Shown here: positions 25,128 through 49,575 of the stretch, piece by piece
Numbering within the stretch: position 1 is the stretch's first letter
Layout of the letters: each line of letters starts with the position of its first letter
Source of the DNA: Acidobacteriaceae bacterium
GTDB lineage: Bacteria; Acidobacteriota; Terriglobia; Terriglobales; Acidobacteriaceae
Reading direction: 5' to 3'
Assembly (NCBI GenBank): GCA_003140075.1
Contig: PLIO01000068.1
Location: forward strand, 22,662-72,236
Length of the DNA stretch: 49,575 nucleotides
Translations under genes and position numbers: made by a program
Notes under the pieces: model-generated
What the model was told of the DNA's origin: nothing
Seen by the model: the letters and a program-made list of their open reading frames with translations, nothing else
Databases searched by the model: none

Positions 25128-26216
25128 CTACTTCTTGCCTGGCGTTTGTGCGGTCAGCAGATCCACAAACATCTTATAGAACTTCTCAAGATCCAAATCA
25201 TCCTGCACTTCGACCGGCTGGACATCAATCTTAGGTTTGTCCTGCTCCGTCCAGCTCAGAGTGTTGCCGTAGCCGGCGCCGCGATCGAGGTCGACATCCA
25301 TGAAGAGCGTTTCTTTCTTCGTGATCAGGGTCGGATCGAGCCAAGCTGCCGCCGCCAGTTCATCCCAAAGATAATTGTAGTTGCCGCGCAGGCGCGCATA
25401 TTTGCCGATGTAGCGAGCCGCCGGCGAGTCGGCCGCCTTGATGCGGTCGATCAGATCGGAAGTCAATCGTGTCTTTACTGAAATATCCACCGGCGTGCAA
25501 ACGATTTTCTTCCATGGTGCACTGAGCACGATGTGGGCCGCTTCCGGATCGAACCAGAGGTTGAATTCGTGGGTGGGTGCGTTGACGAATTCCGGATCGT
25601 CGGTTCGTGGATTGAGGCTGGCGCCCATGAACACCAGTTCTTTGGCGAGTCGCGCGAATTCTGGATCGATGGAAATGGCGAGGGCCAAGTTTGTCATTGG
25701 GCCACCTTCGTAGATCGTCACTTGGTTGGGGAACTTATGAACCATGCGCAAGAGAAAGTGAGCGGCGTCTTCGTCGGAGGGCTTGGCGGTAGGCTTGCCT
25801 TCCGGCATTTCTCCTAGTTCGTCTGGCGCATGATAAAGCTTGGGTGTCCAGGCACCGAGCCACGGCACCGAACCATATTGTTGTTCCCATTGCTCCGTAT
25901 CCTGCTTTCGCCTCACCAGCGGATGCTCCGCTCCCGGCACGACTGGAATGTCGGTTCGCCCGACGAGTTCGAGCATGCGCAAGGTGTGCGCCACCTCCTC
26001 GTGCAGCCACTGATCTCCGGTCACCACCGTGATGCCCAGGACTTCCGTTTGCGGCGATTGAATCAGCAGGAGCATCGACTGCTGGTCGGTTCCGGCGGGC
26101 CCAGCAGCATCCTGATCGATGATGATCTTTCGTCTTTCACTTGGTTGCGCCCAGCACGTTAGGCATGAGATCAGCAGCAAGGCCATTGCCATGTACAGCA
26201 TTCGGTTCGATTTCAT
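25128..26216 (-). CDS. Exported nucleoside hydrolase paralog 1, altered Asp cluster
   Basis: A 362-residue nucleoside hydrolase-fold protein with a signal peptide (MLYMAMALLLISCLTCWAQ), so periplasmic or secreted. The canonical DxDPGxDD is changed to DQDAAGPAGTDQQ (residues 34-46): the first two Asp remain, three residues are inserted and one of the Asp pair becomes Gln. Downstream features are normal: EFVFMG-type strand (ELVFMGASL), EFNLWFDPEAA and WDELAAAAWLDP. Family members cleave N-glycosidic bonds of ribonucleosides. It is closely similar to the paralog at 27855. Activity on the usual substrates is uncertain because the altered residues contribute to calcium and ribose binding. Confidence 0.85.
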   Translation of the reverse strand: MKSNRMLYMAMALLLISCLTCWAQPSERRKIIIDQDAAGPAGTDQQSMLLLIQSPQTEVLGITVVTGDQWLHEEVAHTLRMLELVGRTDIPVVPGAEHPLVRRKQDTEQWEQQYGSVPWLGAWTPKLYHAPDELGEMPEGKPTAKPSDEDAAHFLLRMVHKFPNQVTIYEGGPMTNLALAISIDPEFARLAKELVFMGASLNPRTDDPEFVNAPTHEFNLWFDPEAAHIVLSAPWKKIVCTPVDISVKTRLTSDLIDRIKAADSPAARYIGKYARLRGNYNYLWDELAAAAWLDPTLITKKETLFMDVDLDRGAGYGNTLSWTEQDKPKIDVQPVEVQDDLDLEKFYKMFVDLLTAQTPGKK

Positions 26217-26286
26217 CGATATCCCCTGGGTTGGAAGTTAAGATCATTTGCGCTCGAACTAGAGCGAAACAACGGCTGCGTCATGA

Positions 26287-26355
26287 CTCTACGTAGAGAT
26301 CACAAAGCTTTCAAGTGCATTGCGGACCACGGTCTGAACGACTAGAATGTCGTTC
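26287..26355. promoter_or_regulatory. Two operator-like palindromes in divergent promoter region
   Basis: CTCTACGTAGAG (26287-26298) is a perfect 12-bp palindrome. GAACGAC-TAGAAT-GTCGTTC (26336-26355) is a perfect 7-bp inverted repeat with six-base spacer. Both lie between the divergently read nucleoside hydrolase 1 and TPR genes, so one regulator could control both. Confidence 0.5.
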
Positions 26356-26399
26356 CAATGCGTTCCTAATTTCGCTTCCCTCTTATTCGCGATTGTTCT

Positions 26400-27848: not shown

Positions 27849-27854
27849 GATTAA

Positions 27855-28937
27855 TCAGTGAGCAGCCGGAGTGGGCGCGGTCATTAAGCTGATGAACATT
27901 CGGTAGAACCTTTCCAAATCCAGGTCCACCTGAATCTCGACCGGCTGCGCGGCGAGTGGCGGCTTGTCTTTTTCGGTCCAGGTGAGCGTGTTGCCGTATC
28001 CTGCGCCGCGATCGAGATCCACTTCCATGTAACGAGTTTCCCGCTGGGTAATCAGAGTCGGGTCAATCCAGGCTGCGGCTGCGAGTTCGTCCCACATAAT
28101 ATCGGCGCCGGGAGCATACATGGCGAAATGAGACACGTAGTGGGCCAGCGGCGTTCCGCTCGCTTCGATCTGCTTCATCATGGCTGGGGTTACGTGAGTC
28201 TTGACCGAAATATCGGTTGGGGTGCAGACAATCTTCTTCCAGGGTGCGCGCAAAACGACCTCCGCCGCTTCCGGGTCAAACCAGAAATTGAACTCGTGCC
28301 GGGGATTGTTGGCAAACTCGGGGCTGTCTGTTTGTGGACTCAGGCTTCCGCCCATGAAGACCAGTTCCTCGGCTAGTTCGGGGAACTGGGGATCGAGTGA
28401 GATGGCGAGCGCCAGGTTGGTCATGGGGCCGCCTTCGTAAATCGTCACTTCGTGCGGATACTTGTGCACCATGCGGATCAGAAAGTGGGCGGCGTCTTCG
28501 CCGCTGGGCTTGGTGGTGGGCTGACCTTCCGGGAGCGGCGGCACAACGAAGGGTTCGTGCCACCAGCGGTCGTCCCAGGCACCGGCGTAGGCTACTTTGC
28601 CATAACGTTCCTGCCACAGTTGGGTTTCTTCGCGGCGGCGCACCAGGGGGAAAGCAGCACCGGGCACGACAGGAATGTCGGTGCGGCCAATGATTTCCAG
28701 TAAGCGAAGCGCGTGTGCCACTTCTTCGTCGCGCCACTGGTCTCCGCTGACCACCGTCGCTCCCAGCACTTCGACTTTCGGAGACTGAGCCAACACCAGC
28801 AGAGTCTGCATATTGCTTCCGCCGGGGCCCGAGAAATCTTCGTTGACGATGACCTTTCGGCGAGATTGCGCGACGGTGAGTGAGCTTGCAAGCAGCCAGA
28901 ATAAGATTGCGAGGAAGCCGACGTTATGTTTGGTCAT
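27855..28937 (-). CDS. Exported nucleoside hydrolase paralog 2, degenerate Asp cluster
   Basis: A 360-residue nucleoside hydrolase-fold protein from the ATG at 28937, which starts a signal peptide (GFLAILFWLLASSLTVAQ). The Asp cluster is further eroded than in paralog 1: the region reads VNEDFSGPGGSNMQT, so only Asp34 corresponds to the catalytic second Asp and the Asp pair is Ser-Asn. The later features EFNFWFDPEAA, TPTDISVKTH and WDELAAAAWIDP are kept. It aligns with paralog 1 over the whole length, consistent with a tandem duplication. It is 82 bp downstream of the FGE-fusion gene and probably in the same transcript. Confidence 0.85.
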   Translation of the reverse strand: MTKHNVGFLAILFWLLASSLTVAQSRRKVIVNEDFSGPGGSNMQTLLVLAQSPKVEVLGATVVSGDQWRDEEVAHALRLLEIIGRTDIPVVPGAAFPLVRRREETQLWQERYGKVAYAGAWDDRWWHEPFVVPPLPEGQPTTKPSGEDAAHFLIRMVHKYPHEVTIYEGGPMTNLALAISLDPQFPELAEELVFMGGSLSPQTDSPEFANNPRHEFNFWFDPEAAEVVLRAPWKKIVCTPTDISVKTHVTPAMMKQIEASGTPLAHYVSHFAMYAPGADIMWDELAAAAWIDPTLITQRETRYMEVDLDRGAGYGNTLTWTEKDKPPLAAQPVEIQVDLDLERFYRMFISLMTAPTPAAH

Positions 28938-29019
28938 GGGCCGATCCTGGTGCACGTGATAGAAAAGCTGGTGTTTCCGCAGCTCACCTGCTGCGGCCTC
29001 TCCCATTTGTTCCTCGTCT

Positions 29020-31227: not shown

Positions 31228-31345
31228 TATCACTAGCGCAGTCCTCGAGAAGATTCTTGGATTGGAATTTTGACGGCAGACTGGGTGAAAGCTGTACCTA
31301 GTATAGCTTCCCCCAATCCGCCCGAGTTGAGACCGCATCTGGCTG

Positions 31346-34300
31346 CTAGAAGTTCAGCCGCAGAGCAAACTGAATCACGCGGGGATTGTTCACCGTCTCG
31401 TTGACGATACCAAAACTGGAGGGCGAGTCCTCGTCCTGCATCTGAGTGGCGCTGGTACCGGCCAAGTAGAACTGAGGGTGATTGAAGATGTTGAAGAACT
31501 CAGCCCGGAATGCCACGTACATTCCCTCACGCAAGGGAAAGTCTTTCATGATGGAGAAATCGGTATTGACGAAGCGCGGCCCGTAGAGTGGCGCGCGGTT
31601 GGAGTCGCCAAGCTCTCCTGACGGCGCGTCCATGAAGGCACAGGGGTTGAACCAATCCGCGAGCGTATGTACCTTCGATGGCGCGGTGCAGGTCGGGTTC
31701 GCGGCAACGGGTCCGGGCTGGTTGGGATCGCCGACCTCGTTGGGACGGTTCAGGCTGGCGCCATTCCAATCGAAGTAAACTCCAGAGCCACTGAAGGGGC
31801 CGTTATTGCTCGCCGTCATGAAGAGCGGGAACCCGGAAGTAGCCTTTTCAATCACATTCAGTTTCCAATTTCCCAAGATCCTGCTGACGGGGCTGCTCCA
31901 GGTGCTGCCGAACCGCTTGCCCTTGCCGAATGGTAAGTCGTAGAGAATGCTGGCGGTGAATGAGTCATTGAGGTTGATCTGGGACAGCGCCCAGTCCGCT
32001 CTTTGAGTTCCGGGCAACGGCCAGTAGGTCGCCCCGGGCGTGGTGCCTGCGCCATCGGGCATCCCAGAGTCGAAGGTGCGCGCCCAAGTGTAGCCGATCA
32101 GGGCGTAAAGGCCATGGCGCGCACTCTTGGTCTCCGCCTTGATTTGCAGGGAATCATAGCGTGCGCGGCCATTGTCGCTGAAATTGGAAATGTTGGTGAA
32201 GGGACCATCGAACGGGTACGGTGCGGCAAAAGCCGCTCCACCGGGGCCGCAACCGAAAGTGTAGCCGGGAACAACGCCGCCGCAGGCCCCAGGAGATCCC
32301 ACGTCCAAGTTCAGGCCGTCCACCAGAATGCGCGAGCTGCGAGAACCGGCATACCCAGCCGTCAGCACCACACTTCCCGGTAACTGATGTTCCACGTTCA
32401 AGTTGTACTGCTGCACCATGCCCTGTTTGAAATTGAAGTTCTGGGAATAGATCGTTCCCGTGAAAGTGGCAGGATTCGGTTCTGCTTCATAGGGCGCGAG
32501 GGTGGGCAGCAAGAGTCCAAGTTGAAGGCCGCAGTTCGCCGGGGTGGCCGAGGTAGCGTTGTTAAACGGGCAGGGGACGCCGGCAAAATAATTGAACTGA
32601 TCGGTTTCCGCGAAGTAGGGGGGGTTCTCCCAGAGTCCCTGCGCGCCCTGGCTCCACGCCGAGTCGTGGAAGATGGCATAGCCAGCGCGGATGGCGGTGT
32701 TCTGGCTTCCCCACGGTTTCCAAGCCAATCCGATGCGGGGTTCGAAAGCGGTCTTGTCGAATTGAATGCCTGCGCTTCCACCGCTACGAACGCAAATGGC
32801 GCAAGTCGCCTGCGGGCTATTTCCCGCAACGTAATACATGCCATTGGAGAAATCGAAGTCGGCCATTCGACCGTGGGCTTCGCTCTCGGGCGTCACCAGA
32901 GCCCAGGCCAAGCCGAGGTTCACAGTAAGATTGTTGGATACGCGCCAATCGTCCTGGACAAACGGCCGGTACATCTTCCAGCGGCGGCCAGTGGTGGCCC
33001 CATCGAAGGTCTGGTCGTGGAGCGCGCCATCGTTGGGTTGGCCAAGCAAAAGGTCCGCGGCATCGTCTCCGGTATAGGACGAGCTGCCGCCAAGGAAAAA
33101 GAAGGCTCCGTCCTGGAAAGCATTGCTCCGCACATTCATCTGGTTGATGCGAATTCCAATCCCGAAGTGAATGTTGTGTTTGCCACGAATCATGTCGAGC
33201 GTGTCGGAAGCGGTGTATACGTTGGTCCCGCCTTGAAAGGGAGCAAATCCGCGATCCCCGATGGGCCAGTAATCCGTCAGTTGGATCGAGCTGAGACCGC
33301 AACTCATACAGTCCAGCGTGGTCTGGTTCAGGCTGGCCGGATAGCCGGTTATGCTGTCGCACTGACTCGACAGATCGGCGCCCTGAATTCCCAGAAGAGC
33401 AGCGGTGCAGGCACGGCCGCCGTAGACCCCGTAAGGAAGAATGTGATTGAAGATCCGGTTGAAGCCGGCACTGGCCTGATTGATGGTGTGATCGGAAATG
33501 ACATGAGTCTCCGATATGGCCACATTACGGCCGTGGTTGGTAAGGTACTCGGTGCTGCCGTAAGGATTCTCCTCGGCAAATCCTGGCGAACCGCCGGGAT
33601 CGAACGTCACCGCCTGATCGTAGCTGAAGCGGGCAAAGATCGAATCCTTGCTGGAAAAATTGTGGTCGAGGCGGATGTCGAACTTGCCTTCGTTGAGCGA
33701 TCTCACCGGAACGTTGGTGTAGTTGTAGCCCAGTTGGGCGTTGCTGGCGTTACTCTGGGGATAAAGCTGAATCACCTCTGCGCCGACTTTATCCCGCAGA
33801 GCCTGCGGGATGTAGTCGCAAAGCACCCCCGGCACCTGGCTTCCATCCGGATTCACGGAAGTGGGGGTCGGAACGGCCAGGTTCTGTGTGCCAGACACGC
33901 ACTGGAAATTGGCGGGTTCGGCGCCCGTGGCATATGGGTTGAGAAGATCGCCAAAACCGTACGGGTTGCCCGGTCCTCGGGCATTGCCGTATGGATCCAA
34001 TCGGAAGTCGCCCGTCATCATGGCCTGCGTCGGAACCAGGCCCAGGAACGGGATGCCGTGGCGCTGCTGCTTGGCTTCATAGTCCAGGAAGAAGAACGTT
34101 TTGTCCTTTTGGATCGGACCTCCCAGAGAGCCTCCGAACTGGTTGAGGTTGAATTTTTCCCGCGAGGACGCGAAGTAACTGCGGGCATCAAGATCCGTGT
34201 TTCGGAAGTACTCGAAGAGCGATCCGTGGAACTGGTTCGATCCCGATTTTGTTGTCACCAGCACGGTTGGACCCGCACGCGCGCCGTATTCGGCTGAGTA

Positions 34301-35011
34301 GTTGTAGGTGAGAACCTTAAACTCCTGGATGTCATCGATCGAAGAGAAAATCGCGATACCGCCTGCAGTCAGTTCGTTATTGTCGTTGCCATCGAGCAAC
34401 CAGTCCGTGCTCTGGGCTCGCGATCCACCAACGGAAAGCGAAAACGTTCCGCGGGCGGAGACCTCGCTGCTGGCCCCGCCGTTGAAGAAACTCTGCGGGT
34501 TGGTCTCCTGCGTGGTGCCCGGGGTAAGCGTAGCCAACTGAACGAAATCGCGGCCGTTCAGGGGAAGGTCGGCGACCTCCTCGGAGGTGATGACCTGGCC
34601 GAGCGAGGGATTCGCAGTCTCCACGGCTACTTCCGTAGCGCTCACCTCAACCGTCGAGGAGACGGAGGCGGGCACGAGGGCGAAGTCTACTTCGCGGTGC
34701 TCGTCGACCTGGAGACGGATATCTTTCTGTTCGGTCGACTGGAAACCCTGGGACTCCACTCGAATCCGGTAAACAGCCACGGGCAGGAGGGGAATGAGGT
34801 AGTGTCCTGAATCGTCGGTCCTGGCTTCGCGGGAGAGACCTGTGTCCTGCGAAGTGGCTTTTATCGTTGCGCCTGAAACCACAGCGCCGGCCTTATCAGA
34901 AACGGTACCTGAAAAGCTGCCGGTTGCCTGACCGTGCAGCATGGGACAGATGGAAAATGCCAGCGAACACACAACCCCGACAAGCAGCGCCCTCTTATTC
35001 AGCTTCAGCAT
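31346..35011 (-). CDS. TonB-dependent receptor, Oar-like with carboxypeptidase-regulatory domain
   Basis: A 1221-residue outer-membrane receptor from the ATG at 35011 (AAGGGG upstream). The signal peptide LLVGVVCSLAFSICPMLHGQ is followed by a carboxypeptidase-regulatory domain (GSFSGTVSDKAGAVVSGATI), a plug (ITSEEVADLPLNGRDFVQLA) and a large beta-barrel ending in VIQFALRLNF. No TonB box is clear. This family is greatly expanded in Acidobacteriota and is usually tied to uptake of oligosaccharides or other large nutrients. In this location the likely cargo is a nucleoside, nucleotide or RNA/DNA breakdown product, which is inferred from neighbours only. Confidence 0.9.
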   Translation of the reverse strand: MLKLNKRALLVGVVCSLAFSICPMLHGQATGSFSGTVSDKAGAVVSGATIKATSQDTGLSREARTDDSGHYLIPLLPVAVYRIRVESQGFQSTEQKDIRLQVDEHREVDFALVPASVSSTVEVSATEVAVETANPSLGQVITSEEVADLPLNGRDFVQLATLTPGTTQETNPQSFFNGGASSEVSARGTFSLSVGGSRAQSTDWLLDGNDNNELTAGGIAIFSSIDDIQEFKVLTYNYSAEYGARAGPTVLVTTKSGSNQFHGSLFEYFRNTDLDARSYFASSREKFNLNQFGGSLGGPIQKDKTFFFLDYEAKQQRHGIPFLGLVPTQAMMTGDFRLDPYGNARGPGNPYGFGDLLNPYATGAEPANFQCVSGTQNLAVPTPTSVNPDGSQVPGVLCDYIPQALRDKVGAEVIQLYPQSNASNAQLGYNYTNVPVRSLNEGKFDIRLDHNFSSKDSIFARFSYDQAVTFDPGGSPGFAEENPYGSTEYLTNHGRNVAISETHVISDHTINQASAGFNRIFNHILPYGVYGGRACTAALLGIQGADLSSQCDSITGYPASLNQTTLDCMSCGLSSIQLTDYWPIGDRGFAPFQGGTNVYTASDTLDMIRGKHNIHFGIGIRINQMNVRSNAFQDGAFFFLGGSSSYTGDDAADLLLGQPNDGALHDQTFDGATTGRRWKMYRPFVQDDWRVSNNLTVNLGLAWALVTPESEAHGRMADFDFSNGMYYVAGNSPQATCAICVRSGGSAGIQFDKTAFEPRIGLAWKPWGSQNTAIRAGYAIFHDSAWSQGAQGLWENPPYFAETDQFNYFAGVPCPFNNATSATPANCGLQLGLLLPTLAPYEAEPNPATFTGTIYSQNFNFKQGMVQQYNLNVEHQLPGSVVLTAGYAGSRSSRILVDGLNLDVGSPGACGGVVPGYTFGCGPGGAAFAAPYPFDGPFTNISNFSDNGRARYDSLQIKAETKSARHGLYALIGYTWARTFDSGMPDGAGTTPGATYWPLPGTQRADWALSQINLNDSFTASILYDLPFGKGKRFGSTWSSPVSRILGNWKLNVIEKATSGFPLFMTASNNGPFSGSGVYFDWNGASLNRPNEVGDPNQPGPVAANPTCTAPSKVHTLADWFNPCAFMDAPSGELGDSNRAPLYGPRFVNTDFSIMKDFPLREGMYVAFRAEFFNIFNHPQFYLAGTSATQMQDEDSPSSFGIVNETVNNPRVIQFALRLNF

Positions 35012-35060
35012 TAAAAACCCCTTTTCGGCAGCCCCGCGCCGAATGATGAACAAAAGTCTC

Positions 35061-38727: not shown

Positions 38728-38733
38728 CTCCGA

Positions 38734-39792: not shown

Positions 39793-39888
39793 CGTCTTGC
39801 ATTGTACGGCAGTCGCCACGCCCAACGACACCGCCGCGTTGAGACCGCTCAAAGGTGGGACGCGTGCGGATGGTCGGGCGGAGTTTTC

Positions 39889-39897
39889 TGCTATAGT
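39889..39897 (+). promoter_or_regulatory. Extended -10 promoter of the amidohydrolase gene
   Basis: TGC followed by TATAGT gives an extended -10 (TGnTATAnT). The predicted start near 39904 leaves a short leader containing GGAGG. It lies in the divergent gap to deoC, which spans 39793-39921. Confidence 0.5.
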
Positions 39898-39921
39898 TGC
39901 GTTCCTTGGAGGTCGCGTCCC

Positions 39922-40815
39922 ATGCCTCGAACAGTGCGCTGTGCCTTGATTCAAGCGCGGAACGAACTCGGCAGCGAGCGGCCGCTTGCGCAGATCAGGA
40001 AGGCGATGATCGACAAGCACTTGAAGTTGATAGAACAGGCTGCGAAGAAGAAAACACAAATCCTGTGCCTGCAGGAGCTTTTTTACGGCCCTTATTTTTG
40101 CGCCGAGCAGAATGCGCGCTGGTATGAGCTTACGGAGCGTGTGCCGGACGGCCCGACGGTGCGCCTGATGCAAAAGGTCGCCGCGAAACATCGCATGGTG
40201 ATCGTGGTTCCGGTTTATGAAGAACAGATGCCTGGGGTTTATTTCAACACCGCCGCGGTGATCGATGCCGACGGCCGCTATCTGGGAAAATACCGCAAGC
40301 ATCACATCCCGCACTGCCATCCCGGATTCTGGGAGAAGTTTTACTTCACCCCGGGTGACCTTGGGTACCCCGTGTTTGAGACGAAATATGCGCGGGTCGG
40401 CGTCTACATTTGTTATGACCGACATTTCCCCGAGGGCGCGCGCATTCTGGGATTGAACGGCGCGGAGATTGTGTTTAATCCTTCGGCCACGGTTGCCGGT
40501 CTTTCGGAATATCTGTGGGAACTCGAGCAACCCGCGCATGCTGTGGCCAACGGCTATTTTGTCGGCGCGGTCAACCGAGTGGGCGTCGAGAAGCCGTGGA
40601 GTATTGGCGAGTTCTACGGCAAGAGCTATTTCTGCAATCCGCGCGGAAAAATTATCGCCCAGGCCGGCCGCGATAAAGACGAAGTAGTGGTAGCGGACCT
40701 CGACCTGGAAATGATCGCGGAAGTGCGCAAAGTTTGGCAGTTCTTTCGCGATCGCCGGCCGGAAAGCTATGGACCCCTCACTGCGCAAACTGGAGGGACC
40801 GCGGCCGCAGACTGA
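39922..40815 (+). CDS. Nitrilase-family amidohydrolase, beta-ureidopropionase-like
   Basis: A 297-residue carbon-nitrogen hydrolase. The Glu-Lys-Cys triad is complete: LCLQELFYGPYF (Glu), GKYRKHHIPH (Lys) and VYICYDRHFPEGAR (Cys). FNPSATVAGLSEYLWELEQP closely matches the eukaryotic-type beta-ureidopropionase, which hydrolyses N-carbamoyl-beta-alanine to beta-alanine, CO2 and ammonia. N-carbamoyl-amino-acid hydrolase activity is the alternative. GGAGG nine bases before the ATG supports the start. It is followed 59 bp later by the NCS1 permease, and dihydropyrimidinase is encoded nearby, so pyrimidine catabolism is the best reading. Confidence 0.88.
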   Translation: MPRTVRCALIQARNELGSERPLAQIRKAMIDKHLKLIEQAAKKKTQILCLQELFYGPYFCAEQNARWYELTERVPDGPTVRLMQKVAAKHRMVIVVPVYEEQMPGVYFNTAAVIDADGRYLGKYRKHHIPHCHPGFWEKFYFTPGDLGYPVFETKYARVGVYICYDRHFPEGARILGLNGAEIVFNPSATVAGLSEYLWELEQPAHAVANGYFVGAVNRVGVEKPWSIGEFYGKSYFCNPRGKIIAQAGRDKDEVVVADLDLEMIAEVRKVWQFFRDRRPESYGPLTAQTGGTAAAD

Positions 40816-40874
40816 AGCGCGATCGTTGCACAAATTGGTCGCAACATCGCCTTGCGGCGATTCTGAACAGATCC

Positions 40875-42314
40875 ATGACCACGAACAAATCTCAGTCTCT
40901 CCAATCCCGCATCGAATCCAGTCCCCTCTACAATCCTGACCTTGCGCCCGCACCGGCCGAGCGCCGGCACTGGGGAACGTACAACTTTGCGGCGTTATGG
41001 ATTTCGATGTCGGTGAACATCCTCACCTACATGCTCGCGGCGAGCTTGATTCAGGGTGGGATGAACTGGAAGCAGGCGGTGACGACAATTTTTATCGGCA
41101 ACGTGATTATTCTTGTGCCGATGCTGTTGAACTCGCACCCCGGAGCGAAGTACGGGATTCCGTTTCCGGTGTTGGCGCGCGCGTCGTTTGGAGTACTGGG
41201 CGCCAACGTAGCGGCGGTGCTGCGGGCACTGGTGGCGTGCGGATGGTTCGGCATCCAGACCTGGATCGGCGGCGAGGCGATCAGCACTCTGCTGGCCACG
41301 CTTGCACCGGGATGGAGTAATCTTCCCTACGCCACCGCCGTTTGCTTTCTTCTGTTCTGGCTGATCAACCTTGCGGTGATTGTGATGGGAATTGAATATA
41401 TTCGGATCCTGCAGGGGATCAGCGCACCGGTGTTGTTAGGAGTTGGGCTGTTGCTTTTAGCATGGGCCTATCATGCAGCGGGCGGCTTCGGTCCGATGTT
41501 GGCCGCGCCTTCGCGGTTCAACAACTTCGCAGATTTCCTGAAATTCTTGATTCCTGCTCTGAACGGGACAGTGGGATTCTGGGCCACGGTTTCGTTGAAT
41601 ATTCCAGACTTTACGCGATTCGCGCGGAACCAACGAGAACAGGTTATTGGTCAAGCGCTGGCCTTGCCGACAACGATGACGCTCTATGCCTTTATCGGAA
41701 TCGCCGTGACCTCGGCCACGGTTGTGATTTACGGGACAGCCATTTCGGATCCGGTGCAGTTGCTCAGCCGCTTTCATTCGCCCGTGGCCGTGGTGATCTC
41801 GCTGATCGCGATTCTGCTGGCTACGCTGAACGTCAACATAGGGGCCAACGTCGTTTCACCGGCAAACGACTTTTCGAACCTGTGGCCGCGGCGAATCAGT
41901 TTTCGCACCGGTGGCGTGATTACGTGCTTCATGGGTATCGCTTTAATGCCGTGGAAGCTGCTGGCTGATTACAACACGTTTATCCTCGGCTGGCTCGGTG
42001 GGTATGCCGCGTTTCTCGGGCCGGTCGCGGGCATCATGATCTGCGACTATTTTGTTATGCGAAAGTGTCTTCTCCAGGTGGATGACCTCTACCTTCGCGG
42101 CGGAATCTATGAGTATTCGAAGGGATTTAACTGGAGAGCGATAGTTGCGCTTGCGTTGGGAGCAGGGACGGCGCTCGTCGGTCTCAAAGTTCCGGCGGTG
42201 CGCGTTCTTTACGATTACTCCTGGTTCGTAGGCTTTGCCGTTTCTTTTGCCTTCTATTACGTGATGATGAAATTCCAGCGCTCGGCTGTGCTTTCAACGA
42301 CGGGAGCCTCTTAG
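40875..42314 (+). CDS. NCS1 nucleobase:cation symporter
   Basis: A 479-residue inner-membrane permease with about twelve helices. Family features are the N-terminal RRHWGTYNFAALWISMSVNI, the GIPFPVLARASFG stretch, and IPDFTRFARNQREQ with the loop before helix 8. NCS1 members import uracil, cytosine, hydantoins, allantoin or thiamine with a cation. The genomic setting between a beta-ureidopropionase-like enzyme and dihydropyrimidinase points to uracil, thymine or a hydantoin. The stop is eight bases from the convergent LLM gene. Confidence 0.92.
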   Translation: MTTNKSQSLQSRIESSPLYNPDLAPAPAERRHWGTYNFAALWISMSVNILTYMLAASLIQGGMNWKQAVTTIFIGNVIILVPMLLNSHPGAKYGIPFPVLARASFGVLGANVAAVLRALVACGWFGIQTWIGGEAISTLLATLAPGWSNLPYATAVCFLLFWLINLAVIVMGIEYIRILQGISAPVLLGVGLLLLAWAYHAAGGFGPMLAAPSRFNNFADFLKFLIPALNGTVGFWATVSLNIPDFTRFARNQREQVIGQALALPTTMTLYAFIGIAVTSATVVIYGTAISDPVQLLSRFHSPVAVVISLIAILLATLNVNIGANVVSPANDFSNLWPRRISFRTGGVITCFMGIALMPWKLLADYNTFILGWLGGYAAFLGPVAGIMICDYFVMRKCLLQVDDLYLRGGIYEYSKGFNWRAIVALALGAGTALVGLKVPAVRVLYDYSWFVGFAVSFAFYYVMMKFQRSAVLSTTGAS

Positions 42315-42322
42315 AGTGAACC

Positions 42323-43327
42323 TTATAGCTTCGCGGTTTCCTGAAACGCCGGCAGAACTTCGCGCCGATAAATATCCAGTGTCTGTTCCTCGTCCCCGCA
42401 CATCAAATACACATTGAACTGCGTGACTCCTGCTCTCGCCAATTTGCGCAACTTTTCGTGATGAGCTTCAACCGGCCCGACCAGACAAAAGCGATCGACC
42501 ACCTCGTCAGAGACAAAGTTCGCGTTATCGCTTTCGACCACGCAGTGATGTTGATAGTCGTACCCGCCACGGTCCCGCACGTATGAAGTGAGCTCCGCAG
42601 GCAGATCTTCCGGCTTGTACTGCCGGATGAGATCCATCACATGGTTCGAAACCAGCGCCGGAAACCAGCGCACGCGTTCGCGTGCCACAGCCAGATCACC
42701 AGAAACCCAAACCGGAGCGGCCGACATTACTTCGATCTGGTTTGCATCCCGGCCTGCGGCGCGAGCACCCTCTTTCACGAAACCAAGGCACCATGCAATC
42801 AGATCGGGATCGGCAAACTGAAGAATGATCCCGTCGGCGACGCGCCCTGCCATGTGCAAAACCTTCGGTCCGTATCCCGCGATCCAAACTCGCGGCGAGA
42901 CCGTCGCCCATGTGAGGCGAGTGGGCTGACCTTCGTACTCAACTTCGCGGCCGGCAGTGAGATCGCGAAAAATCTTCACCGCACTTTCCAACTGCGACCA
43001 ACTGACTGGCTTTTTTCCGAGCACACGTCTCGAGCTGTCACCGCGCCCAATGCCCAGTTCCATCCTGCTGCCAGAAATCAGATTCAGGGTTGCGAACAAG
43101 CTGGCCGTCACCGTGAGATCGCGAACTGCAGGATTGGTCACGCACGTGCCAAACCGCATGTGTTGCGTGTTCGCGGCCATGAGTGCCAGCAGCGGGTACG
43201 GTTCTTTCCACAGAACGTGGGAATCGAAGATCCATCCGTATTGGAAGCCGGCGGCTTCGGCCTGACGCGTCAAACCGAGAATGCGCTCCACTGAAATGTC
43301 TGGCTTTAGCGTAATGCCGAACTGCAT
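42323..43327 (-). CDS. LLM-class flavin/F420-dependent oxidoreductase
   Basis: A 334-residue TIM-barrel oxidoreductase of the bacterial luciferase-like superfamily. QFGITLKPDISVERILGLTRQAEAAGFQYGWIFDSH opens it. FGTCVTNPAVRDLTVTAS and RMELGIGRGDSSRR follow, close to the group resembling methylene-H4MPT reductase (the CPS_4043-type group, from memory). Whether it uses F420 or FMN cannot be decided by sequence reading, and no F420 biosynthesis gene is in the window. The neighbours on both sides belong to pyrimidine degradation. It may act on a pyrimidine-ring intermediate. Confidence 0.88.
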   Translation of the reverse strand: MQFGITLKPDISVERILGLTRQAEAAGFQYGWIFDSHVLWKEPYPLLALMAANTQHMRFGTCVTNPAVRDLTVTASLFATLNLISGSRMELGIGRGDSSRRVLGKKPVSWSQLESAVKIFRDLTAGREVEYEGQPTRLTWATVSPRVWIAGYGPKVLHMAGRVADGIILQFADPDLIAWCLGFVKEGARAAGRDANQIEVMSAAPVWVSGDLAVARERVRWFPALVSNHVMDLIRQYKPEDLPAELTSYVRDRGGYDYQHHCVVESDNANFVSDEVVDRFCLVGPVEAHHEKLRKLARAGVTQFNVYLMCGDEEQTLDIYRREVLPAFQETAKL

Positions 43328-43442
43328 GGCGCAGCCCCTTTCTTCACTGCCAAGAATTATGAGGAAGTGAAGTGCGGCAGTTTAGCATAAAATTCCTTCT
43401 TCATCTCAACCAGGCTTCAGTCAGTTTTGATTGGAGGGATCG

Positions 43443-44837
43443 ATGGGCTTCGATACGATCATCGGCAACGGATCGGTGGTAACCGCGACCGACACCTACG
43501 CGGCAGACGTAGCGATTACAGATGGGAAAATCGTGGCCATCGGCAACAATCTTCCGCGAGAGAATGCCACAGCGGTGCTGGATGCGTCGGGAAAGTACGT
43601 CTTCCCCGGCGGCATCGATGTCCACACGCATCTGGACATGCCGTTTGGCGGAACGACCAGCGCCGACGATTTTGAAACCGGCACGCGGGCGGCGGCTTTC
43701 GGTGGAACGACAACGCTGATCGATTTCGCCATCCAGTACAAAGGCCAGCCGCTGAGGAAAGCTTTCGATACGTGGATGGACAAAGCCTCGAAGAAGGCCG
43801 TCTGCGATTATGCCTTTCACTGCATCGTTACTGACATCGGCGACGGTCAATTGCAGGAGATGAATTCCCTGATCGGAGAAGGCGTGACCAGCTTCAAGCT
43901 CTTCATGGCCTATCCCGGAGTCTTCATGCTCGACGACGCCAGCATCTTCCGCGCGCTGCAAACAACTGCGAAGAACGGCGGCCTCATTTGCATGCACGCG
44001 GAAAATGGAAGCGCGATCGATGTAATCGTGCAACAGGCGCTGGCGGAAGGAAAAAAGGCTCCGAAGTATCACGCTCTGACTCGGCCTACAACGGCAGAAG
44101 CGGAAGCCGTGTCCCGTGCAGTTGCTCTGGCAGAGATGGCAGGGGCTCCGATTTACATTGTGCATTTGAGCTGCAATGAAGCTCTCGAGAAAGTTCGTGA
44201 GGCGCGCGATCGCGGCCTTCCGGTATATGCCGAGACTTGCCCGCAGTATTTGTATCTTTCGATAGAAAACTTTGACGTGCCGGATTTCGAAGGCGCAAAG
44301 TATGTTTTTACGCCGCCGCTTCGCGAAAAGTGGCATCAGGAAAAGCTCTGGAACGGCCTCAAGCACGATCATCTGCAGGTTGTCTCTACCGATCACTGTC
44401 CATTTTGTTTCAAGGAGCAGAAAGAGCTCGGTCGCGACGACTTCACCAAGATACCGAACGGTGGACCGGGCGTGGAGCATCGCATGAGCCTGATTTACTC
44501 GGGTGGTGTTGCCCAGGGGCGTTTCAGCGTAAATCGATTCGTCGAACTGGTTTCAACGACCCCGGCCAAGTTGTTTGGCTTGTATCCGCGCAAGGGAACG
44601 ATCGCTGTGGGCAGTGACGCGGATCTCGTGATCTTCAATCCGGCGCGTAAGCATACGATCAGTGCCAAGACTCACCACATGCGCGTTGACTACTCGATGT
44701 TCGAAGGTATCCAGGTAACCGGCATGCCCGACGTCGTTCTCAGTCGAGGGCGCGTCGTGGTGGATGGGGATAAGTTTCTGGGCCGTGCCGGGCAGGGCGA
44801 GTTTCTAAGGCGCGCAACCTACTCGCAGGCAAAATAG
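43443..44837 (+). CDS. hydA: Dihydropyrimidinase
   Basis: A 464-residue amidohydrolase opening dihydrouracil/dihydrothymine to N-carbamoyl-beta-amino acids, or hydantoins to carbamoyl amino acids. Metal ligands are visible: GGIDVHTHLDMPFGG, the carbamylated lysine in TSFKLFMAYPG, MHAENGSAID (His), YIVHLSC (His) and STDHCPF (Asp). All match D-hydantoinase/dihydropyrimidinase. ATG at 43443 is chosen for GGAGG five bases upstream. It is divergent from the LLM oxidoreductase gene and followed by a permease gene. Confidence 0.95.
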   Translation: MGFDTIIGNGSVVTATDTYAADVAITDGKIVAIGNNLPRENATAVLDASGKYVFPGGIDVHTHLDMPFGGTTSADDFETGTRAAAFGGTTTLIDFAIQYKGQPLRKAFDTWMDKASKKAVCDYAFHCIVTDIGDGQLQEMNSLIGEGVTSFKLFMAYPGVFMLDDASIFRALQTTAKNGGLICMHAENGSAIDVIVQQALAEGKKAPKYHALTRPTTAEAEAVSRAVALAEMAGAPIYIVHLSCNEALEKVREARDRGLPVYAETCPQYLYLSIENFDVPDFEGAKYVFTPPLREKWHQEKLWNGLKHDHLQVVSTDHCPFCFKEQKELGRDDFTKIPNGGPGVEHRMSLIYSGGVAQGRFSVNRFVELVSTTPAKLFGLYPRKGTIAVGSDADLVIFNPARKHTISAKTHHMRVDYSMFEGIQVTGMPDVVLSRGRVVVDGDKFLGRAGQGEFLRRATYSQAK

Positions 44838-44934
44838 CTAGTCGCGCGAATTTCGGCGCTTGCCAACTTGTGGGGTTGGTATAAGAAGAGTAAAGTTACG
44901 AGTTTTCGCTCTTACAGACTGTTAAGGAGAATTG

Positions 44935-45912
44935 ATGTTCACACCCTCGAGCCTGAGCATTGCGCTGTTGATGATGATCACGAGCGCCGTTTGCTGGGGC
45001 TCATGGGCCAACACTTACAAAGGTGTCAAAGGCTATCGCTTCGAGCTTTTTTATTGGGATTATGCCATCGGCATTTTCTTGGTATCCCTTGTGCTTGCGT
45101 TCACGATGGGGAGCACCGGAAATAATTCCTCCAGCTTTCTCAACAACGTTCGCGCGGCGGATACTGCGAACATTGTTAACGCGCTGATCGGAGGCGCGCT
45201 GTTCAACCTGGCCAATCTGTTGCTCGTGGCCGCAATCGACATGGCTGGGCTCGCCGTCGCGTTTCCTATTTCAATTGGAATCGCGCTGGTAGTCGGGACT
45301 GTGCTGAGTTATGCTCTGCAGCCCAGGGGAAACGCCACTCTCCTGGCGTTTGGTGTTGCGTGCGCTTTTATTGCGGTGCTGTTGGATGGCAAGGCATATG
45401 GCTGTCTCGCAGCCACAGGACGCACCGTTTCAAAGAAGAGCTTGATCACTTGCGTAGTTTCCGGGATCCTGATGGGCCTGTGGGCCCCTTTCATGACGCA
45501 CGCGATGACGCGCGGCAACACGCTGGGACCTTATAGCGCCGCCGTGTTTCTGACGCTGGGAGCACTCCTCTCTTGCTTTATCTGGAATTTTTATTTTATG
45601 AAGCATCCGCTGGTAGGAGAGCCGGTAAGTTTCAGTGGATTTTTCCGCGGGCCCGCCACCGGGCACCTGCTGGGGCTTTTCGGCGGATGCATTTGGGGCG
45701 TAGGTACGGTGTTCAACCTGGTGGCCGCGAGCTTTACGGGTGTCGCGATTTCTTACGCGATCGGCCAGAGCGCTCCCATGGTGGCGGCGCTGTGGGGAAT
45801 TCTCGCGTGGAAAGAGTTTGCAAACTCGGGACCTCGGGCCAAAGCGTATCTTGGCCTCATGTTCGTCTTCTATGGCTTGGCAATTTTCCTGGTGGCGCGG
45901 TCGAATGGATGA
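44935..45912 (+). CDS. Drug/metabolite-type permease (sugar or ureide)
   Basis: A 325-residue inner-membrane protein with about ten helices in two five-helix halves. The start is ITSAVCWGSWANTYKGVKGYRFELFYWDYAIG, and the C-terminal half includes GLFGGCIWGVGTVFNLVAASF and SYAIGQSAPMVAALWGILAWKEF. It resembles glucose/ribose porter and plant ureide permease relatives. Ribose uptake or import of nucleobase breakdown products fits the neighbours, but the substrate is inferred. AGGAGA lies before the ATG at 44935. Confidence 0.8.
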   Translation: MFTPSSLSIALLMMITSAVCWGSWANTYKGVKGYRFELFYWDYAIGIFLVSLVLAFTMGSTGNNSSSFLNNVRAADTANIVNALIGGALFNLANLLLVAAIDMAGLAVAFPISIGIALVVGTVLSYALQPRGNATLLAFGVACAFIAVLLDGKAYGCLAATGRTVSKKSLITCVVSGILMGLWAPFMTHAMTRGNTLGPYSAAVFLTLGALLSCFIWNFYFMKHPLVGEPVSFSGFFRGPATGHLLGLFGGCIWGVGTVFNLVAASFTGVAISYAIGQSAPMVAALWGILAWKEFANSGPRAKAYLGLMFVFYGLAIFLVARSNG

Positions 45913-45918
45913 GACGCG

Positions 45919-46971
45919 CTATTTACCTCTGATCCGGCTGATGAACAGATTCAAGAATCGGTCCGCATCCGAAGCCAGGCAAACTCGCGCATTCGGCTTG
46001 AGGTCGATCACGCCCTCGATCTCATAGTGGTCTCCATGCAGAACGTTGTTTTCGTTCGATCCCATGCGGTTCGCAACGGTCTCTCCGCGGGTAAACTCGC
46101 CTTTGGTTTCGACATCGACGTGCATTTCCTCAAGCGTACCCAGAGTCGGATCCAGCGCAATCCCCACCGCCAGCGGATCATACATCGCGGCTCCGCTGTA
46201 TCCGCTCTTCTCGCTGCGGGTCAAATAGAAGTCGGCAATCTTGGCGATGAAGTCGCTCTGCGGCCCGCGGGACGACTGCAGCTCCGCAAGATACTTTCGC
46301 GTGATCAACGTTCGCTCGCCCACGTCGGAGCCGACCATGGTAACCATCCAGCCGGCATTGAACACAATCTGCGCCGCTTCAGGGTCGTTATAGATGTTCG
46401 CTTCAGCGGCGCCGTTCACATTTCCACCGGAAATCGAACCGCCCATAATCACGATATCCTTGACTAACGATGCAATCGAAGGATCTTTCGAAACCGCCAG
46501 CGCAATGTTGGTGAGAGGCCCTACCGGAATCAGTGTGATCTCATGCGGATACTTGTGAACCATTTCGACGATGAGATCCGGACCGAAGCGGGGATCCGCC
46601 TTGCACTTAGTGGGCGGCAATTCGACGTTCGCCAGGCCATTCTTTCCATGCCAGAACTGCGCCGTAATCAGCTTCTGATTCAGAGGATGCTGCGCTCCTC
46701 CGGCGACCGTCACGTCGCAACGCCCCGCCAGCGAAACGATCTTCAGAGCGTTTTCCAGTCCCTGGCGCGCATCCACGTTGCCGGGCACCACCGTCAGCGC
46801 TTCCACTTTGAACTCCGGAGAATTCAGCGCGAGGATGATCGCCATGGCATCGTCGGTGCCAGGATCGGTGTCGATGATCACTCGCCGCGGCGCGGCTTGC
46901 GCGAGGGCACTCGTCAAAGAAGACAGGACGAAAAGCAGACTCAGACCGAATGGAATGCGAAGTTGTTTCAC
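45919..46971 (-). CDS. Exported nucleoside hydrolase, canonical active site
   Basis: A 350-residue nucleoside hydrolase. The signal peptide (GLSLLFVLSSLTSALAQA) shows export. The canonical motif DTDPGTDD at residues 34-41 is intact, unlike the paralogs at 25128 and 27855. KDIVIMGGSI, AEANIYNDPEAA and YDPLAVGIALDP follow. It probably cleaves purine and pyrimidine ribonucleosides in the periplasm, giving base and ribose. It is 34 bp downstream of nupC, in the deoA-nupC-hydrolase transcript. Tyr replaces the usual catalytic-site His before the last Asp (MYDPL), as occurs in some family branches. Confidence 0.93.
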   Translation of the reverse strand: MKQLRIPFGLSLLFVLSSLTSALAQAAPRRVIIDTDPGTDDAMAIILALNSPEFKVEALTVVPGNVDARQGLENALKIVSLAGRCDVTVAGGAQHPLNQKLITAQFWHGKNGLANVELPPTKCKADPRFGPDLIVEMVHKYPHEITLIPVGPLTNIALAVSKDPSIASLVKDIVIMGGSISGGNVNGAAEANIYNDPEAAQIVFNAGWMVTMVGSDVGERTLITRKYLAELQSSRGPQSDFIAKIADFYLTRSEKSGYSGAAMYDPLAVGIALDPTLGTLEEMHVDVETKGEFTRGETVANRMGSNENNVLHGDHYEIEGVIDLKPNARVCLASDADRFLNLFISRIRGK

Positions 46972-47005
46972 CGGAGGAACTCCTTTTTCGAGAAGTCAAT
47001 TCGAG

Positions 47006-48235
47006 TTATAGCAACATGCCCGCGATTGACGCGGACATCAGGTTGGCCATGGTTCCCGCCAGCATCGCGCGAATACCAAGTCGCGCCAGTTCGCTCTTCT
47101 TGTTCGGCGCTAACGCTCCGATGCCGCCAATCTGAATCCCGATCGAACTGAGATTGGCGAATCCGCAAAGCGCAAACGTGGCGATAGTGAAAGAGCGCGG
47201 GTCGAGCACAGCCTTCATCGGTCCGAGCATCGAGAATGCCACCAGTTCGTTCAGCACCATGCGTGTACCGAGCAAAGAGCCAATCACACCGCAGTCACGC
47301 CAGGGAACGCCAATTACCCAGGCAACCGGAGCAAAGACAGCTCCGAAAACCCTTTCCAGACTTTCCGGAAACCAGCCTACCCAATGGTGAATTCCACCCA
47401 TAATGCCGTCCGCCAAGGCGATGAGCGCGAGGAACGCAATCAGCATGGCCGCGATGTTCAAAGCCATATGAAGGCCATCGCTTGTTCCTCGCGCGATCGC
47501 GCCGAGCAGATTTTCTTTCTTCTCGGCTTGCTCTTCGTCTTCGGGCATGACGACCCTGCCGGCGGTCTTCGGTTCTTCGGTCTCGGGCACGAGCATCTTC
47601 GCCATTAACAGTGTCCCGGGTGCGGTCATGATGACAGCGCTGAGCAGGTGTTTGGGTTCGATGCCGAACGCGATGTAGGCGGCCATGATTCCGCCGGAGA
47701 CGTGGGCCATGCCGCTGGTCATCACGGTCATGAGTTCCGAGCGGGTGAGATCCGGTAGAAACGGACGGATGGTTACCGGCGCCTCCGTTTGTCCCATGAA
47801 AATGCTGGCCGCGATGTTGAGCGACTCGGCGCCGCTGGCGCCCATTACCCAGGTCATGACCCGGGCGGCAATCTTAATTACGAACTGCATCACGCCGACG
47901 TGATAGAGCACGGCGAAAAATGCGCAGATGAAAATAATGGTCGGCAGTACCTGAAAGGCGAAAACGAAGCCGAGATGGGAATTTTGTTTTCCGAAGTCGC
48001 CGAAAACAAACTGTGAGCCGGCAAAAGAATAATTGAGTAAACGGCTGACTACATCGCCGGCTCGCTGAAAAATTCGCCGCCCGGCGTCGATTCTCAGCAC
48101 ACACACCGCAAAAGCGACCTGCAAGCTCAGGCCCCAGGCTACGGTTTTCAATCGAATTGCCCGGCGATTGGTCGAAAAAATGTAGGCCAATGCCAGCATG
48201 GTCAGGAGGCCAAGGATTCCAGTGAAGCGTCCCAT
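47006..48235 (-). CDS. nupC: Concentrative nucleoside transporter NupC
   Basis: A 409-residue CNT-family symporter carrying nucleosides with H+ or Na+. The core gate sequence GASGAESLNIAASIFMGQTEAP and the C-terminal NELVAFSML, CGFANLSSIGIQIGGIGALAP are diagnostic. About eight to ten helices and two re-entrant loops are expected. It directly abuts the deoA stop codon (TGA-ATG), so translation is coupled. Intact nucleosides imported here would be phosphorolysed by DeoA. Confidence 0.95.
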   Translation of the reverse strand: MGRFTGILGLLTMLALAYIFSTNRRAIRLKTVAWGLSLQVAFAVCVLRIDAGRRIFQRAGDVVSRLLNYSFAGSQFVFGDFGKQNSHLGFVFAFQVLPTIIFICAFFAVLYHVGVMQFVIKIAARVMTWVMGASGAESLNIAASIFMGQTEAPVTIRPFLPDLTRSELMTVMTSGMAHVSGGIMAAYIAFGIEPKHLLSAVIMTAPGTLLMAKMLVPETEEPKTAGRVVMPEDEEQAEKKENLLGAIARGTSDGLHMALNIAAMLIAFLALIALADGIMGGIHHWVGWFPESLERVFGAVFAPVAWVIGVPWRDCGVIGSLLGTRMVLNELVAFSMLGPMKAVLDPRSFTIATFALCGFANLSSIGIQIGGIGALAPNKKSELARLGIRAMLAGTMANLMSASIAGMLL

Positions 48236-49575
48236 TCAGTTTTTCTCTCCGGGCTTTCCGATCACACGATGGATTAACGGTCTTTTCTCGTGCGCGGGAG
48301 AATCGGTAATTCGATAACTCCCTTCGAGCAGTTGCCTGGCGCGAACCGCTCGCGCCTCTGCATTGTAGTAGATCGTCGCCAGCGGTTCGCCAGCCGAAAC
48401 AGCGTCTCCAAGTTTCTTGTGGAGCACGATTCCCACCGCGGGATCGACCGAGTCTTCTTTGCGTTCGCGGCCGCCACCGAGAATTACACACGCGGTACCA
48501 ACCTGCTCGCATTGCAGCGATGTGATATATCCGTCCATGGAGCTGGAGAGTTTCATCGTTCGCTGAGCCTGGGGCAGTCTCTTGGGATCGTCGATCGATT
48601 GCGGATCCCCACCCTGCAGTTTCACCATCTGGCGAAAGCGATCGAGCGCTTCGCCCGAAACGATTAGTTTTCCGCTCTGCTTTTTTCCCTCCGCAACCGT
48701 ATCGGAAACTCCGCCCAAGTAAAGCATCCAGCCGGCAAGTTCCAGGCAAAGCTGACGCAAATCTTCCGGTCCCTGCCCGCGCAGGACTTCGACCACCTCG
48801 ACAACTTCAAGCGCATTGCCGATCGTGTTTCCCAGCGGCTGATCCATGTCCGTGATGAGCGCCACAACCTGTTTGCCCATCCGCTCCCCGGTTTCCACCA
48901 TGAGTTCGGCAAGAAACGCGGCGTCCTCGTCGCTTTTCATGAATGCCCCCGAACCAGTTTTTACATCGAGCACCAAAGCGTCGATGCCTTCCGCAAGTTT
49001 CTTGCTCATGATGGAAGCGCAGATGAGATAAGGGCTTTCGACTGTTCCGGTCACGTCGCGCAATGCGTATAGCTTGCGATCGGCGGGAGCGATTTCGGCG
49101 GTCTGGCCAATTATGGCGCAACCGCAGGTTTCGAGTACGCGGCGAAACTGAGCGACGGGAAGATTCACGTTGAAGCCGGGAATGGCCTCGAGTTTGTCCA
49201 GCGTTCCTCCGGTATGCCCCAGGCCGCGGCCGCTGATCATGGGAACTACTATCCCCGCGGCGGCGGCAAGCGGCGCCAGGACAAGAGAAGTCTTGTCTCC
49301 CACGCCTCCGGTCGAGTGCTTGTCGACTTTCTTCGCCGGAAGAGAAGAGAGATCGAGCACTTCACCCGAGCGCAGCATGGCATCCGTTAGTGCGGCAGTT
49401 TCGGCGCGCGTCATACCCCGCAGCACCACCGCCATCAGCCACGCCGAGACCTGATAGTCGGGGATATCTCCGCGAGTGTATGCGTTCACCAGGGATTCGA
49501 TTTCGATCCGCGATAACTCGCCGCCATCCCGCTTCTTGCGAATCACATCGATGGCGCGGAATGTCTGCGATGAAG
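48236..49575 (-). CDS. deoA: Pyrimidine-nucleoside/thymidine phosphorylase (5' end cut by window edge)
   Basis: A pyrimidine nucleoside phosphorylase converting thymidine, deoxyuridine or uridine plus phosphate to base and (deoxy)ribose 1-phosphate. The signature KHSTGGVGDKTSLVL, ISGRGLGHTGGTLDKLE, and KTGSGAFM is complete. At the right edge the frame continues upstream of a GTG at 49546 through Phe-Arg-Ala-Ile-Asp-Val-Ile-Arg-Lys-Lys-Arg, the normal family N-terminus. The true start is therefore at or beyond the window end. It is followed by nupC with no gap. Confidence 0.94.
   Translation of the reverse strand, partial: SSQTFRAIDVIRKKRDGGELSRIEIESLVNAYTRGDIPDYQVSAWLMAVVLRGMTRAETAALTDAMLRSGEVLDLSSLPAKKVDKHSTGGVGDKTSLVLAPLAAAAGIVVPMISGRGLGHTGGTLDKLEAIPGFNVNLPVAQFRRVLETCGCAIIGQTAEIAPADRKLYALRDVTGTVESPYLICASIMSKKLAEGIDALVLDVKTGSGAFMKSDEDAAFLAELMVETGERMGKQVVALITDMDQPLGNTIGNALEVVEVVEVLRGQGPEDLRQLCLELAGWMLYLGGVSDTVAEGKKQSGKLIVSGEALDRFRQMVKLQGGDPQSIDDPKRLPQAQRTMKLSSSMDGYITSLQCEQVGTACVILGGGRERKEDSVDPAVGIVLHKKLGDAVSAGEPLATIYYNAEARAVRARQLLEGSYRITDSPAHEKRPLIHRVIGKPGEKN

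Follow-up and report, generated by a model that had tools for sequence, protein, structure and literature searches.

A luciferase-like oxidoreductase as a proposed F420H2-dependent uracil reductase in a pyrimidine-nucleoside island of the Acidobacteriota

Reductive pyrimidine breakdown includes the reduction of uracil or thymine, a step that in animals is done by the enzyme that degrades fluorouracil. The known supplier of dihydrouracil is PydA/PreAT, described in the available part of PMC7332683 as an enzyme with flavin mononucleotide (FMN) and iron-sulfur centers. For a purine pathway of Chloroflexota, the available part of PMC12507026 (2025) proposes from gene context a yanthine reductase that is F420 dependent and belongs to the luciferase family. 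Here we describe a 49,575-nucleotide stretch (positions 22662 to 72236) of contig PLIO01000068.1 ("the window"), from the 5.77-Mb genome of a soil bacterium of the Acidobacteriota (276 contigs; completeness, 100; contamination, 5.8), in which a gene for a luciferase-like, LLM-class oxidoreductase of family TIGR03842 (hereafter, LLM) is located between the genes for an NCS1 nucleobase:cation symporter and a protein of the dihydropyrimidinase/D-hydantoinase family (HYD). We consider it quite probable that this island processes pyrimidine nucleosides and that LLM, together with F420H2, reduces uracil to dihydrouracil, thereby replacing PydA/PreAT. This view builds on gene content, on the lack of a detected PreA, on F420 genes, on co-occurrence with dihydropyrimidinase, and on operon positions in several phyla.

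The step from uracil to dihydrouracil in the window genome

For the hydrolytic part of reductive pyrimidine breakdown, the window encodes HYD and a CN hydrolase that we name β-ureidopropionase (BUP) by context. Since dihydropyrimidinase and ureidopropionase require dihydrouracil, yet searches with the DHO_dh profile and with Escherichia coli PreA found no PydA/PreA dihydropyrimidine dehydrogenase in the window genome, a gap is left in the route. The PreA query had no match at an E value of ≤1e-40, and the profile yielded one strong match, the 316-aa PyrD, and a partial one of 30.9 bits. The original prediction, made from the sequence of the window, had postulated a near-complete route from external nucleosides to central metabolites and thereby concealed that no classical enzyme for this step is found in the genome; its gene list also omitted LLM (42323-43327) and a protein with an FGE-sulfatase domain (29020-31227).

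LLM is the only oxidoreductase of the module without an assigned step. At E ≤ 0.001 it matched PF00296 alone, and the FMN domain of DHO_dh (PF01180) was not detected. TIGR03842 is listed in NCBIfam as a hypothetical equivalog, and the family is named F420 dependent (the name also refers to Colwellia). Ten solved relatives were retrieved at E ≤ 1e-10, the best six of which are chains of Mer, the F420-dependent methylenetetrahydromethanopterin reductase (8qpm, E = 1.5e-37). Mer was also the second-best NCBIfam model, but because its score of 157.7 bits is below the cut-off of 276, LLM is not a Mer. Across 90 distinct LLM sequences, 64 columns were conserved at ≥97%. Strands and helices alternate in an AlphaFold2 model, which was used for secondary structure only (mean predicted local distance difference test score, 87.5; predicted template modeling score, 0.88).

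The F420 pathway occurs in the same genome as LLM. One cof cluster encodes CofG, CofD, CofC, CofE, and NpdG, all above their cut-offs, as well as CofH, which reached 363.8 bits (cut-off, 374.1) in a frame interrupted by undetermined bases. F420 is probably the cofactor of LLM, and we propose that LLM is an F420H2-dependent uracil/thymine reductase unrelated to PydA.

The genes in the right half of the window were identified by Pfam and NCBIfam profile searches:

25128..26216, minus strand: NH1, nucleoside-hydrolase-like, noncanonical motif DQDAAGPAGTDQQ (PF01156, 198.9 bits)
Between NH1 and NH2: carboxypeptidase-regulatory/TPR protein
27855..28937, minus strand: NH2, nucleoside-hydrolase-like, noncanonical motif NEDFSGPGGSNMQ (PF01156, 190.8 bits)
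29020-31227, between NH2 and the barrel: 735-aa protein with a C-terminal FGE-sulfatase domain (Pfam)
31346..35011, minus strand: Oar-like outer-membrane beta-barrel with a carboxypeptidase-regulatory domain (PF25183, 657.6 bits)
35248..36201, minus strand: ribokinase RbsK (TIGR02152, 335.5 bits; cut-off, 299.65)
36319..38727, minus strand: double-domain aldehyde dehydrogenase (ALDH), ALDH16-like (PF00171, two stretches)
38734..39525, minus strand: deoxyribose-phosphate aldolase DeoC (TIGR00126, 158.8 bits; cut-off, 117.3)
39922..40815, plus strand: BUP, CN hydrolase, β-ureidopropionase by context (PF00795)
40875..42314, plus strand: NCS1 nucleobase:cation symporter (TIGR00800, 388.9 bits; cut-off, 353.1)
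42323..43327, minus strand: LLM-class oxidoreductase (TIGR03842, 415.9 bits; curated cut-off, 295.45)
43431..44837, plus strand: HYD, dihydropyrimidinase/D-hydantoinase family (TIGR02033, 642.8 bits; cut-off, 393.25)
44932..45912, plus strand: ureide-permease family transporter (PF07168, 76 bits; cut-off, 27)
45919..46971, minus strand: NH3, exported-looking nucleoside hydrolase, canonical motif DTDPGTDDA (PF01156, 303.6 bits)
47006..48235, minus strand: nucleoside transporter NupC (TIGR00804, 445.3 bits; cut-off, 442)
48236..49546, minus strand: pyrimidine-nucleoside phosphorylase DeoA (TIGR02644, 558.5 bits; cut-off, 409.05)

The LLM gene is convergent with NCS1, 8 bases from its end, and divergent from HYD, with ∼103 bases to the listed HYD start; this start is a TTG, and the real one may lie slightly downstream. 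The DeoA reading frame runs open to the window end, and the gene set goes on beyond it with a cytidine deaminase (Cdd, named by eye), an ALDH, and PyrR. In outline, the gene names given earlier were right, as NCS1, NupC, DeoA, DeoC, ribokinase, and dihydropyrimidinase were all matched by Pfam or NCBIfam models. Other names held in part: the "drug/metabolite-type permease" is a permease with its best score to Ureide_permease; "ALDH16" is a double-ALDH protein that no model of that name matched (a literature search for ALDH16 together with DeoC found nothing relevant); and the "beta-ureidopropionase-like enzyme" is a CN hydrolase whose best NCBIfam model, N-carbamoylputrescine amidase TIGR03381, scored 253.9 bits, below the cut-off of 410.25, its present name being founded on gene context. 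The N-terminal 500 residues of the 735-aa FGE-sulfatase-domain protein had no Pfam match.

Distribution of LLM and its gene neighborhoods

Four markers were searched in a sample of 297 Acidobacteriota genomes: TIGR03842 (over cut-off), CofD (E ≤ 1e-20), PreA-like proteins (E ≤ 1e-40), and dihydropyrimidinase (over cut-off). LLM was found in 24 genomes, CofD in 39, PreA-like proteins in 60 (42 at ≥293 bits and 18 at 150 to 194 bits), and dihydropyrimidinase in 105. All 24 LLM genomes contained dihydropyrimidinase and none contained a PreA-like protein, while CofD was present in 23 of them versus 16 of the 273 others. Among the 77 genomes with dihydropyrimidinase at ≥570 bits, 24 had LLM, 51 had a PreA-like protein, none had both, and 2 had neither; the latter are G203, in which dihydropyrimidinase is located near XdhD- and YgfK-like genes, and G245. 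The same comparison for all 105 dihydropyrimidinase genomes gave 24 with LLM, 57 with a PreA-like protein, none with both, and 24 with neither. Within the window's own family (f1), 4 genomes had LLM and CofD, and 19 had a PreA-like protein, with CofD in none of these 19. If the 150- to 194-bit class is dropped, the overlap with LLM remains 0/24, and more dihydropyrimidinase genomes are left without a reductase. Members of this lower class (scored against E. coli PreA) adjoin dihydropyrimidinase in L149:4249-5388 and L190 to L192, and no PreT match was present in these stretches.

A scan for LLM relatives yielded 38 loci, 37 from Acidobacteriota and 1 from Chloroflexota, many of which end at contig ends. 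HYD was found around 30 of them, NCS1 and BUP around 28 each, and PreA or PreT around none. In the respective whole genomes, CofD was detected in 34 of 38 and PreA in none, using a query that matched 60 of the 297 Acidobacteriota genomes. Genes for nucleoside utilization were less frequent: DeoA, NupC, DeoC, double ALDH, and RbsK occurred in nine loci each and Cdd in eight. The most widely travelling unit is a smaller LLM module with HYD, NCS1, and BUP, which nucleoside genes accompany in some of the loci. Since Cdd, DeoA, NupC, DeoC, and double ALDH recur together around LLM and HYD in 8/38 loci (L011, L013, L014, L015, L017, L018, L044, and L045), the genes do not scatter without conserved order, and the earlier description of a nucleoside-degrading island is borne out.

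In a sample of 201 Chloroflexota genomes, LLM was found in 34, dihydropyrimidinase (counted at E ≤ 1e-80) in 90, and PreA-like proteins in 9. Dihydropyrimidinase was present in 34/34 LLM genomes, compared to the 90/201 overall. Larger regions were available for 28 of the LLM genomes, and within 10 kb of LLM these contained HYD (25 regions), BUP (23), aminotransferase (18), NCS1 (10), ALDH (8), CofE (3), PreA (1), and a RutA-like protein (1). Genome G351 exhibits an operon of six same-strand genes with gaps of ≤53 bases, in the order NCS1, LLM, BUP, HYD, semialdehyde dehydrogenase (TIGR01722, 625.8 bits; cut-off, 448.5), and aminotransferase; because the later pathway steps have their own enzymes here, uracil reduction is left for LLM. 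In G387, a cofD-cofC-cofE-fno cluster adjoins LLM.

On the Leisingera aquaemixtae plasmid NZ_CP081034.1, cofG, cofH, cofD, cofC, cofE, npdG, LLM, and a RutR-like TetR gene run in one direction, and pntA, pntB, and genes for an aminotransferase, a carbamoylase, HydA, and NCS1 run in the opposite one. The regulator, which was read in this one plasmid, resembles E. coli RutR, a sensor of uracil and thymine (41.9% identity over 179 residues), and its score of 198.3 bits against TIGR03613 does not reach the cut-off of 368. A query spanning the 15.6 kb between LLM and NCS1, both included and the regulator excluded, matched 10 plasmids from two Leisingera species, nine times as a whole match and once in two places, apparently over the record start. 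Among the 60 PreA-bearing records listed (of 63) in a search of plasmids, none was from Leisingera. With the F420 pathway, a transhydrogenase, and pyrimidine genes together on plasmids, the cluster (L205:4194-19651) is potentially a transferable F420-pyrimidine package. Both here and in the G351 operon, LLM fills the PydA/PreA slot among Pyd genes, in contrast to the PreA-bearing loci L191, L197, L200, and L201; in the last three this slot is held by PreA/PreT.

Paracoccus alcaliphilus has the arrangement cofGHDCE-npdG-LLM, with no pyrimidine neighbors within the stretch shown. On plasmid p1 of Streptomyces sp. BHT-5-2, a HYD match ends 29 bases ahead of the LLM match, and BUP and aminotransferase matches are located upstream. 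In a midpoint-rooted LLM tree, Rhodobacterales split off, followed by a group of Streptomyces, Chloroflexota G495, and genus g72; dihydropyrimidinase neighbors were found in members of each branch. We think it fairly likely that TIGR03842 proteins in general are F420H2-dependent uracil/thymine reductases, representing a second, unrelated invention of the initial reduction, and that Leisingera, perhaps along with other Alphaproteobacteria and Acidobacteriota, keeps F420 mainly for them.

Proposed mechanism and alternative explanations

The reaction, substrate, cofactor, and direction that we infer for LLM can be placed in the following scheme. Nucleosides would be cut outside by NH3 or inside by DeoA and Cdd, giving uracil, thymine, and sugars, the last of which RbsK and DeoC would process. 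Uracil and thymine would either come in via NCS1 or form inside. NADPH would reduce F420 through the NADPH:F420 reductase NpdG, encoded in the cof cluster of the same genome, and LLM would then use F420H2 to deliver a hydride to the C5-C6 double bond of uracil or thymine, after which HYD and BUP would yield β-alanine or β-aminoisobutyrate, CO2, and ammonia. The hydride step is plausible because F420, at −340 mV, is reported to act on alkenes, enones, and enoates, according to the available part of PMC8498797.

Several observations weigh against this assignment. CofD was not seen in 4 of the 38 relatives (two of these assemblies are <2 Mb) or in the census LLM genome G131. The census counts and their Fisher values take no account of kinship, and the 24 LLM genomes represent 12 genera, with 11 genomes from a single genus; moreover, the 570-bit line was picked after the score gap (570.1 to 552.2) had been seen. 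In larger regions taken from 14 of these 24 genomes, HYD was found within 10 kb of LLM in 4 and BUP in 7, alongside NCS1 in 5 and PreA in none. Two members of genus g72 (L176 and L177) had no pyrimidine gene detected near LLM; both hold HYD and BUP side by side elsewhere (L194 and L195). Among Chloroflexota, PreA-like proteins were present in 5/34 genomes with LLM versus 4/167 without it. The five (G365, G392, G465, G473, and G489) include G392, in which PreA (352 bits) is accompanied by PreT on a different contig than LLM, and G473, in which a PreA-like protein (176 bits) is located within the LLM cluster. Finally, the substrates of HYD and BUP are themselves assigned from sequence and context.

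The missing CofD matches would be accounted for if LLM were the uracil reductase of the pathway and used FMN and NAD(P)H instead of F420, the link to cof genes then reflecting lineage only. The luciferase-like superfamily indeed contains FMN and F420 enzymes alike (PMC6279831, available part). However, the strong association of LLM with CofD in the census, the cof operons adjoining LLM in Paracoccus, Leisingera, and Chloroflexota G387, and the F420-dependent Mer chains as top solved relatives make this version very unlikely in our judgment. We see a small chance that LLM reduces or oxidizes a different compound, such as a hydantoin, a purine-derived ring, or a downstream semialdehyde, in this ring-opening pathway or one parallel to it. 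Consistent with this, the HYD family also contains hydantoinases, an F420-dependent yanthine reductase of the luciferase family has been proposed in Chloroflexota (PMC12507026, available part), and LLM and PreA-like proteins are kept together in the five Chloroflexota genomes named above. Against it, the G351 operon has a separate dehydrogenase for the semialdehyde step, pyrimidine-nucleoside genes are coupled to the module in the window, and a RutR-like regulator is part of the Leisingera cluster. A place for LLM in a uricolytic cluster was considered and rejected: SsnA, YgfK, YgeW, YgeX, and YgeY were found near LLM in 0/28 Chloroflexota regions and in 0/37 and 0/14 Acidobacteriota regions (weak XdhD-like matches occurred in 0, 1, and 2 regions, respectively).

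The original prediction had instead centered the island on TonB-driven nucleoside uptake, with three exported hydrolases cleaving outside the inner membrane, which we regard as unlikely. The three proteins exist, being the only PF01156 matches genome-wide at E ≤ 0.001. The canonical calcium motif of nucleoside hydrolases is DxDxxxDD, and only NH3 has it. NH3 and its close relatives retain DTDPGxDDA, and NH3 looks exported (judged by eye, as for all three, from N-terminal hydrophobic stretches), in line with cleavage before the inner membrane by this enzyme. NH1, NH2, and their relatives exhibit an inserted, altered motif (DQDAAGPAGTDQQ; NEDxSGPGGSNMQ) and a W ahead of the late conserved D, with the patterns DQD..GPAGTDQQ at 25128-26216 (NH1) and NED.SGPGGSNMQ at 27855-28937 (NH2); one NH1 relative, short in its locus, was readable to the first motif only. 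Since the altered motifs are conserved in relatives, NH1 and NH2 look like a divergent subfamily and not like decayed genes, possibly a new subfamily with a changed metal site, and their cleavage of nucleosides is doubtful. The presumed TonB receptor is present as an Oar-like PF25183 barrel, the TonB plug of which matched at 22.3 bits, under the cut-off of 23.9. This barrel was found in 9/38 loci (once at 27% identity) and adjoins RbsK in 8 of the 38; NH2 is close by in three loci and NH1 in one. The idea of TonB-dependent nucleoside uptake, for which gene adjacency alone speaks, was set aside.

Two further observations were made. A nucleoside hydrolase of the DTDxASDDA type, 35 to 42% identical to NH3, is located near LLM and HYD in L015, L016, L017, L018, L025, L029, L045, and L048. 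A single open frame at L004:9805-11676 appeared by eye to combine ACMSD-like and tryptophan 2,3-dioxygenase-like parts (kynurenine pathway) and adjoins kynureninase- and KMO-like genes; no relatives of this frame were found in the five other stretches searched.

Comparison with known pathways

A proposal of an F420-dependent uracil reductase was not found in the literature, in a search that took in few subscription journals and no preprints. If LLM has this role, TIGR03842, so far a hypothetical equivalog, would gain a concrete and testable function in several phyla, the presence of cof genes inside a pyrimidine cluster would be explained, and uracil and thymine reduction would have a route free of an iron-sulfur domain. 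The LLM clusters resemble the Pyd pathway with PydA/PreAT (as described in the available part of PMC7332683) in that NCS1, dihydropyrimidinase, ureidopropionase, aminotransferase, and semialdehyde dehydrogenase are grouped around one reductase. They differ from it in that this reductase is luciferase-like, has no DHO_dh or iron-sulfur domain, and is accompanied by F420 genes. The ferredoxin-dependent PydAc of Clostridium, from the same source, provides a precedent for a first-step variant with a different electron donor; PydAc is, however, a PydA homologue, and LLM is not. Mer comprises the nearest solved relatives of LLM, whose context is pyrimidine breakdown instead.

With the Rut pathway (RutA, RutR), the LLM systems share uracil catabolism and, in the Leisingera cluster, a RutR-like regulator. 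In contrast, the match between LLM and RutA is weak (blastp, 24.9% over 185 residues, E = 1e-4; no phmmer match), and LLM as a RutA-like oxygenase was rejected; a RutB match within 10 kb of LLM was found in 0 of 79 regions. As far as the available part of PMC12507026 extends, the closest published idea is its yanthine reductase of Chloroflexota. Compared by gene context, both proposals place an F420-dependent LLM enzyme where a flavoenzyme would otherwise act and both involve a reductive dearomatization, whereas the yanthine reductase belongs to uric acid clusters with SsnA.

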